Shown here: positions 22,114 through 60,931 of the stretch, in pieces
How positions within the stretch are numbered: the first letter of the stretch is position 1
How the letters are laid out: every line of letters starts with the position of its first letter
NCBI GenBank assembly: GCA_944325625.1
Contig: CALVAP010000007.1
Coordinates: 62,001 to 126,000, forward strand
Origin: Candidatus Gastranaerophilales bacterium
GTDB taxonomy: Bacteria > Cyanobacteriota > Vampirovibrionia > Gastranaerophilales > Gastranaerophilaceae
Reading direction: 5' to 3'
DNA: 64,000 bases
Notes under the pieces: generated by a model
Told to the model about the DNA's origin: nothing
The model's database searches: none
The model's input: the letters and a program-made list of their open reading frames with translations, nothing else
Program-made: the position numbers and the translations under genes

Positions 22114-22158
22114 TTCAATTATAATTGAATACACATGTTTGTCAATAGTTGACATAAT
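22114..22158. promoter_or_regulatory. divergent overlapping promoters with two inverted repeats between pilin and XRE genes
   Basis: For the pilin (minus): TTGACA (22145-22140), 16 bases, TATAAT (22123-22118), 8 bases before its ATG. For the XRE gene (plus): CATAAT (22153-22158), 6 bases before its ATG. Two inverted repeats overlay them: ATTCAATTA/TAATTGAAT (about 22113-22130) across the pilin -10, and TGTCAA-TAG-TTGACA (22140-22154) across its -35. They are natural operator candidates for the XRE protein. Confidence 0.65.
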
Positions 22159-51592: not shown

Positions 51593-51624
51593 TATCCCTA
51601 CCACATATTCGCAGGAAATCAAAT

Positions 51625-51789
51625 ATGAACGATAAAAATAATAAAAAAGCACAAAAAACCAAAACAAAGCCTAAAAAAAGTATAAAAAATATGGGGCTGG
51701 ATATTGACAAAAATGAATATATGGAAATAATCCTCTCCAACTCCAATCACCCGGAGGCAACATATAAAAATAAGCACTATTTTGAATAA
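51625..51789 (+). CDS. possible 54-residue basic small protein
   Basis: ATG at 51625 with AGGAAA about 8 bases upstream, TAA at 51787-51789. The peptide has a Lys-rich first third (KKAQKTKTKPKKSIKN) and then a mixed segment (LDIDKNEYMEIILSNSNHPE). It starts 33 bases after the bcp stop and could be co-transcribed. No family recognised; A-rich composition makes chance Lys codons common, so it is uncertain. Confidence 0.4.
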   Translation: MNDKNNKKAQKTKTKPKKSIKNMGLDIDKNEYMEIILSNSNHPEATYKNKHYFE

Positions 51790-51860
51790 AACAACAGTCG
51801 AAAAATGCCCCCTCTTGACCCAATATTTGACACAAAACATCAATTTTAAAACAACAAACC

Positions 51861-51889
51861 TTGACACAAGACGTCAAAAGTCTTATAAT
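51861..51889 (+). promoter_or_regulatory. perfect consensus sigma-70 promoter
   Basis: TTGACA (51861-51866), exactly 17 bases, TATAAT (51884-51889): both boxes match consensus in every base. The start would be near 51896. No protein gene lies downstream on the plus strand until sulP at 53380, with two minus-strand genes between. The site therefore serves a non-coding transcript. Confidence 0.85.
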
Positions 51890-51895
51890 TTTAAT

Positions 51896-52085
51896 TAGGG
51901 AAGTCTTAAAATGTAAATGTATAACTGTCTAATATAAGCCCGCAAAGGCGCAAGATTGAGCAGTGAGAGCATCTGGGTAAAGGGCGGGCACCTATATCTT
52001 GCGCAATACCATTCACTGTTGCATACATTCAAACTCACTGCTCATTTTATTTTAATGACATTTTACGTCATTTGGACTTATTCTT
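51896..52085 (+). ncRNA. candidate structured non-coding RNA, about 180-190 nt
   Basis: It starts just after a perfect promoter. The ends can pair: AAGTC (51901-51905) with GACTT (52075-52079), AAATG (51909-51913) with CATTT (52069-52073), TAAATGT (51914-51920) with ACATTTTA (52058-52065, one bulge). Inside are three further perfect complementarities: 6 bp (51938-51943 with 51984-51989), 9 bp (51948-51956 with 51996-52004) and 11 bp (51957-51967 with 52034-52044). The 6- and 9-bp helices interleave as an H-type pseudoknot; the 9- and 11-bp helices also cross, so alternative folds are likely. Length, end pairing and promoter strength recall 6S RNA, but the pseudoknot does not. No long plausible frame. 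The 3' end overlaps the stop of the flavin reductase gene. Confidence 0.6.
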
Positions 52086-52587
52086 TTACAAGAACTTTCT
52101 CTATTTCTGCAATATATAACGTGTGGAAATCGGATTTCTGATACCACAAATCAATCAATTTTTCATCAACAAAGTTTTCGGGCGCATATTTTTGCTTATA
52201 AAGATTTTTACAGAAAACCGCAAGCCTTGCTTCATTAAAATATGGAATTCCATCATAAAACTCAAGACTCAAACCCGAGTTTTGAATTTTATCCTCATCC
52301 CGACCGGATACCGTTCCAAGGTAGTTGAGTTTACTTTTGAACTCATCATTATAAAAAGTAAGAGAAAATCTTCCTGACTCGTCCACCAGTTCTTTTGTAT
52401 ATCTTTGTGGACGAAGAACGACAAAGACAACATTTTTTGCCCACATGACACCCATTGCGCCCCATGAGGCTGTCATTGTATTAACCAAACCGTTAGATTC
52501 CGCACTCACCAACATCCAATCTTTGCCTATCAATTTAAAAGTATTTTCTTGCAATTCTTTTGGTGAAATTTCTTTAAAACCCTGCAT
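52078..52587 (-). CDS. flavin reductase family protein
   Basis: A 169-residue FMN-binding split-barrel protein of the flavin reductase-like family. The start FKEISPKELQENTFKLIGKD and MTASWGAMGVMWAKNVVFVV, then RPQRYTKELVDESGRFSLTF, are typical of this group in anaerobes. The natural substrate is unknown. ATG 52587 with GGAG 6 bases upstream is preferred to the start at 52599. Its stop lies within the end of the opposite-strand RNA. Confidence 0.88.
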   Translation of the reverse strand: MQGFKEISPKELQENTFKLIGKDWMLVSAESNGLVNTMTASWGAMGVMWAKNVVFVVLRPQRYTKELVDESGRFSLTFYNDEFKSKLNYLGTVSGRDEDKIQNSGLSLEFYDGIPYFNEARLAVFCKNLYKQKYAPENFVDEKLIDLWYQKSDFHTLYIAEIEKVLVKE

Positions 52588-52634
52588 AACAATCTCCAAT
52601 AAACTACTAAATCATTATAACAAAAATTTTTAAT

Positions 52635-60858: not shown

Positions 60859-60931
60859 TTATGACGTTTAGTGCCATATCTTTATCAGGTTTTTAGGCGT
60901 CGTGCGAGATTTATAATTTCAAATTCCGCAC

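Follow-up and report, generated by a model that had tools for sequence, protein, structure and literature searches.

A probable small RNA gene with three mutually crossing helices and putative XRE control in Gastranaerophilales

What is made from a consensus promoter behind which no protein gene can be found? The question is raised by a locus in the window, the 64-kb stretch of contig C7 that we analyzed in the 1.7-Mb genome (G000) of a Candidatus Gastranaerophilales bacterium. A sequence-only reading of this DNA had pointed out a TTGACA-17-TATAAT promoter followed by no credible protein gene and had proposed a pseudoknotted non-coding RNA. The promoter is indeed exact; TTGACA-N15..19-TATAAT occurs without mismatch only twice in 64 kb (the second, at 22145 on the minus strand, has a 16-bp spacer), and no protein-coding gene fits the 51861-52053 region. 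We consider it reasonably probable that this region is a stand-alone small RNA gene and that its product is an XRE-repressed, trans-acting RNA whose compact ABCABC core displays a 28-nt loop. The features on which this reading is built are collected in Table 1.

Table 1. Coordinates, in the window, of the predicted RNA gene, its operator sites, and the candidate regulator gene
Feature	Position	Strand	Remarks
Consensus sigma-70-type promoter	51861-51889	+	TTGACA (51861-51866), 17 bp, TATAAT (51884-51889); exact
Predicted RNA, about 155 nt	51896-52053	+	boundaries predicted, 5' by the -10 box and 3' by the T-rich stretch
Helix a, 5' arm GCCCGC	51938-51943	+	pairs with 51984-51989; 6 bp, perfect
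Helix a, 3' arm GCGGGC	51984-51989	+	partner of 51938-51943
Helix b, 5' arm GCGCAAGAT	51948-51956	+	pairs with 51996-52004; 9 bp, perfect
Helix b, 3' arm ATCTTGCGC	51996-52004	+	partner of 51948-51956
Helix c, 5' arm TGAGCAGTGAG	51957-51967	+	pairs with 52034-52044; 11 bp, perfect
Helix c, 3' arm CTCACTGCTCA	52034-52044	+	partner of 51957-51967
Loop motif CATTCACTGTTGCATA in b'-c' linker	52010-52025	+	candidate working site; unchanged in G001, while G002 retains ATTCACTG
T-rich stretch TTTTATTTT	52045-52053	+	directly 3' of c', a position shared by the three species; with c, probable terminator
Operator 1, GAC-ACAAGAC-GTC	51863-51875		GAC-N7-GTC, overlaps -35; same overlapping pair in g19 locus L162
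Operator 2, GAC-GTCAAAA-GTC	51870-51882		in the spacer, 7-bp shift from operator 1
Operator 3, GAC-ATTTTAC-GTC	52057-52069		3' end of the unit; TGACATTTTACGTCA = G001 -35 site, identical
Weak upstream copy GACACAAAACATC	51829-51841		1 mismatch
Degenerate operator GACGTTTAGTGCC	60863-60875		88 bp before the regulator gene, with 1 mismatch; perfect equivalents in G001 and G002
XRE/HTH_3 regulator, 224 aa	60101-60775	-	probable repressor of the RNA promoter; about 8-9 kb from the RNA

Three crossing helices and their turnover in sister species

The neighbors of the RNA are a peroxiredoxin gene, a conserved 54-aa open reading frame (ORF), and a flavin reductase gene (52078-52599). Since the flavin reductase gene is convergent to the RNA, nothing would be controlled in cis, and as the upstream genes also differ among species, the RNA appears to be free-standing. 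The 54-aa ORF (SIKNMGLDIDKNEYMEIILSNSNHPEAT, 51625-51789, plus strand) is conserved in varied neighborhoods in 273 of 288 family genomes and has no match in Pfam; it is a family-wide small protein. Among 30 loci read around this ORF, the RNA lies beside it only in two copies of the genus, those of G000 and G001.

The sequence-only reading had described three perfect interleaving helices of 6, 9, and 11 bp. All three were found (here a, b, and c), and each crosses the other two, the arms following the order a-b-c-a'-b'-c' in the window copy and in both sister copies described below. Because the three helices cross mutually, the order is ABCABC, with more than two overlapping pairs, a recognized but uncommon arrangement named pseudotrefoil or triple knot (PMC3390330, PMC4885603); Table 3 of PMC3390330 gives ABCABC in 51 RNA sequences versus 1688 for ABAB and 365 for ABACBC. 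None of 1200 dinucleotide shuffles of the window copy equaled the observed triple, and the counts for the three species were 0, 1, and 0 of 1200.

We compared three species of one genus (g1): the window genome, G001 (locus L004, later L197), and G002 (L003), the syntenic gaps of the last two being reached through the flavin reductase gene and the 54-aa ORF. The element adjoins the same neighboring genes in both sister species. DNA identity in these gaps is nearly gone, and there follow in unchanged order a promoter (TTGACA..TATAAT in G001, TTGACA..TATTAT in G002) and helices a, b, and c, which read CCCGAA/TTCGGG, GCCGGAAAG/CTTTTCGGC, and GGCGGAAACA/TGTTTCCGCC in G001 and CCCGTT/AACGGG, GCGTAAG/CTTACGC, and AAGCGGTGG/CCATCGCTT in G002. 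In a hand-set register, gap-free inside the helices and applied to three sequences, too few for tree-aware covariation statistics, 15 of the 22 shared pairs have changed on both sides in the outer register and 19 in the inner one, and no pair is broken; CCCG/CGGG of helix a is constant when that segment sets the register. The linkers of the three species measure 4, 3, and 0 nt (a-b), 0, 4, and 3 nt (b-c), 6, 5, and 5 nt (a'-b'), and 29, 28, and 28 nt (b'-c'). With just the window copy as input, a covariance model recovered the full length of each sister copy (37.8 and 31.9 bits) and re-paired helix b in them. Comparison of the three species shows that the promoter, the predicted topology, the spacing, and a loop motif are kept while the letters of the helices turn over. 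The gaps of close relatives, which the sequence-only reading had proposed to inspect, thus hold both the promoter and compensatory changes, and both sister species support that reading's idea of a pseudoknotted, non-coding RNA transcribed from a promoter of its own. Because promoter, helix order, spacing, and loop recur, because the pairs are compensated, and because shuffles almost never match the triple, we regard the element as very probably a real structured RNA gene, its structure and its status as a gene being well supported.

DNA similarity searches gave no match outside this genome, and a search of the genome collection for further species of the genus returned only G001 and G002. When covariance models were run on relatives, only the three species scored convincingly, followed by mere promoter matches; the models are weak, and a stricter covariance filter fails to recover even the G001 and G002 copies. 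The RNA gene is known from one genus and is previously undescribed, a literature search having returned no such RNA from the non-photosynthetic gut relatives of cyanobacteria.

How might the three helices be arranged? Nested folding programs favor c alone and are unable to score a, b, and c jointly. With linkers this short (0-4 nt for a-b, 5-6 nt for a'-b'), a and b are well suited to a classical H-type pseudoknot over which c would close, and we infer that all three helices coexist in one molecule. In it, a and b may form a compact pseudoknot, c may fold over this, and c together with the T-rich stretch may end transcription. The terminal complementarity previously noted between 51901-51920 and 52058-52079 does appear in the predicted fold; however, it extends beyond the T-rich stretch and into a GAC-N7-GTC site. 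The RNA ends of the sister species have different, shorter closing stems, so that the closing stem is the least secure part of the structure.

The sequence-only reading had also proposed alternative states, and a conformational switch would be the foremost competitor of a single knotted fold. Under such a scheme, an a/b pseudoknot would alternate with helix c, and c with the T-rich stretch would serve as a conditional terminator, perhaps controlled by a ligand. Nested folding does yield three competing folds of quite different energies, and the T-rich stretch behind the 11-bp helix, correctly recognized in that reading, has its equivalent in both sister species; to this extent the proposal fits. 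Alternative states are nevertheless unnecessary, for all three helices are conserved and no nucleotide belongs to more than one of them, which leaves no built-in competition. All linkers allow simultaneous pairing, except for the tight b-c joint (0-4 nt), and a switch would have no gene to act on downstream, the next one being convergent. We therefore consider a switch unlikely and retain the coexistence of the three helices.

Coexisting helices would leave the b'-c' linker exposed. This 28- to 29-nt loop carries the motif AUUCACUG in the window copy and in both sister species; in its full form CATTCACTGTTGCATA it is present in two of the three species and as ATTCACTG in all of them. A search of 191 genomes with one mismatch allowed gave only chance-like matches outside the genus. 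A rigid knot core could hold the 28-nt loop single-stranded, and AUUCACUG could then bind a partner in trans, either an mRNA or a protein. This function of the loop is one that we infer, and we see the chances of a trans-acting loop as evenly balanced.

Operator sites and a candidate XRE regulator

The spacer between the -35 and -10 boxes is filled by overlapping GAC-N7-GTC palindromes, a feature absent from the sequence-only reading. The 64 kb hold eight such sites, three of them inside the 210-bp RNA element. The operator sites of G001 are kept but shifted, with one over the -35 box and one just past the -10 box. A scan of 239 family genomes found the operator-promoter combination also in genera g14 and g19, where an HTH_3/XRE gene diverges from it, the start codon at a distance of 36-60 bp, and where the opposite side bears a different non-coding unit that apparently has its own terminator. 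Full-length orthologs of the regulator occur in the three species of the genus (E values of 2e-70 to 9e-72), and in G001, G002, and g33 a GAC-N7-GTC site precedes the regulator start codon by 80-90 bp. The palindrome thus precedes one orthologous HTH_3/XRE gene in four genera (G001, G002, g14, g19, and g33, with one mismatch in G000), and the same operator is found in the RNA promoter. As a control, we looked upstream of 23 other XRE genes and found the site at none of them; its background frequency is 0.012 per 150 bp. An AlphaFold model of the regulator was of low confidence (mean pLDDT of 58).

Judging from this distribution of sites, the RNA promoter is quite probably under XRE control. 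Most simply, the XRE protein would be an autoregulated repressor and would probably silence the RNA promoter as well: a dimer of it would bind the palindromes between -35 and -10, shut the strong promoter, and regulate its own gene too, so that the RNA would be made in bursts once the repressor releases the promoter. Another view accepts the small RNA gene and holds that the GAC-N7-GTC sites bind a different protein or none, the RNA being constitutive and abundant. The promoter, being consensus and thus strong by sequence, would suit such an RNA; we judge this improbable given that, in several genera, the palindrome precedes an XRE gene of one orthologous group, and that the 23 other XRE genes lack it. 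Still less credible is an untranscribed DNA element, either a miniature mobile element or a recombination site with inverted arms: GAC-N7-GTC copies do flank the unit at both ends in this genome, but the element is single-copy, keeps the same neighborhood in three species, retains its -35 and -10 boxes, and has had its helices replaced pairwise.

Several non-coding units lie beside regulators of this kind in other genera. In g14, a unit of about 200 nt with a terminator hairpin is found next to the XRE regulator (L142, L144, L147-L151, and L161) and contains the conserved stretch AGAC(A/T)TTATAATTCCAA; the four copies searched against Rfam (L142, L144, L147, and L149) gave no match. At L143 and L146 of the same genus, a second copy combines a shorter XRE protein (137 aa), whose gene diverges from an operator-promoter of this type, with another non-coding unit. 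In g19 (L153-L155) and g33 (L191), the regulator diverges from short stretches that are apparently non-coding and have GAC-N7-GTC sites in the promoter region; their sequences are unlike the units of g1 and g14. An abc-type fold was sought in the non-coding units of g14, g19, and g33 and was not seen, so that the regulator link is no proof of a shared RNA function.

We tentatively propose a wider picture, in which the element would belong to a new class of free-standing RNAs in bacteria, their core made up entirely of a three-helix ABCABC knot, with helix letters turning over almost freely and the topology and one loop being kept, within a fast-evolving family of XRE-repressed RNAs of Gastranaerophilales where the same regulator is paired with a different RNA in each genus. 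Little work seems to have been done on small RNA genes in the non-photosynthetic gut relatives of cyanobacteria. Here, a rare knot topology is coupled with an identified candidate regulator, which makes both structure and control directly testable, and the regulator-operator pair offers a handle for finding more non-coding units across the family, beyond sequence search alone.

Comparison with known RNAs and regulators

No Rfam family reached its gathering threshold with the window copy or with the sister copies, which answers the check that the sequence-only reading had suggested. That reading had named 6S RNA as the nearest known idea, while observing that crossing helices do not fit it; the observation holds, now for three mutually crossing helices conserved with compensation, and 6S is excluded as an identity. 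Although its length, closing stem, and strong consensus promoter resemble those of 6S RNA, we find it hardly credible that the element is a 6S RNA or a paralog, since a search of 51600-52400 with a limit of E = 10 gave no RF00013 match, the probable 6S RNA of this genome lies elsewhere (G000:C2:23754-23936; 39.6 bits, under the Rfam cut-off), most relatives likewise have a separate 6S match (46 of 59 genomes carry a 6S-like match), and the single long hairpin with a central bubble that defines 6S is not seen here and is incompatible with mutually crossing helices. Many family members score similarly low with the 6S model, which therefore seems a poor fit for this group. A type III toxin-antitoxin RNA was rejected as well, for there is no neighboring endoribonuclease toxin gene and no repeated pseudoknot unit in the sequence.

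With published pseudotrefoils (PMC3390330, PMC4885603), the element shares the arm order a-b-c-a'-b'-c', and the likeness drawn here concerns that order. Closer in style of gene is the raiA motif, or ModT (RF03072), an RNA of about 200 nt with two pseudoknots whose conservation spans over 2,500 species from Bacillota and Actinomycetota (PMC11706538). Like ModT, the element is stand-alone and intergenic, has a housekeeping-type promoter, and controls no adjacent gene. Unlike ModT, it has no Rfam match (RF03072 itself gave none at the locus up to E = 10), little fixed sequence, and one known genus. The putative control recalls XRE/CI-type repressors with a divergent autoregulated promoter, with which it shares an HTH_3 protein and palindromes over the promoter spacer. 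It departs from them in that the controlled unit would be a non-coding RNA and in that regulator and RNA lie 8-9 kb apart in this genus; the divergent layout of such systems is matched in g14 and g19.
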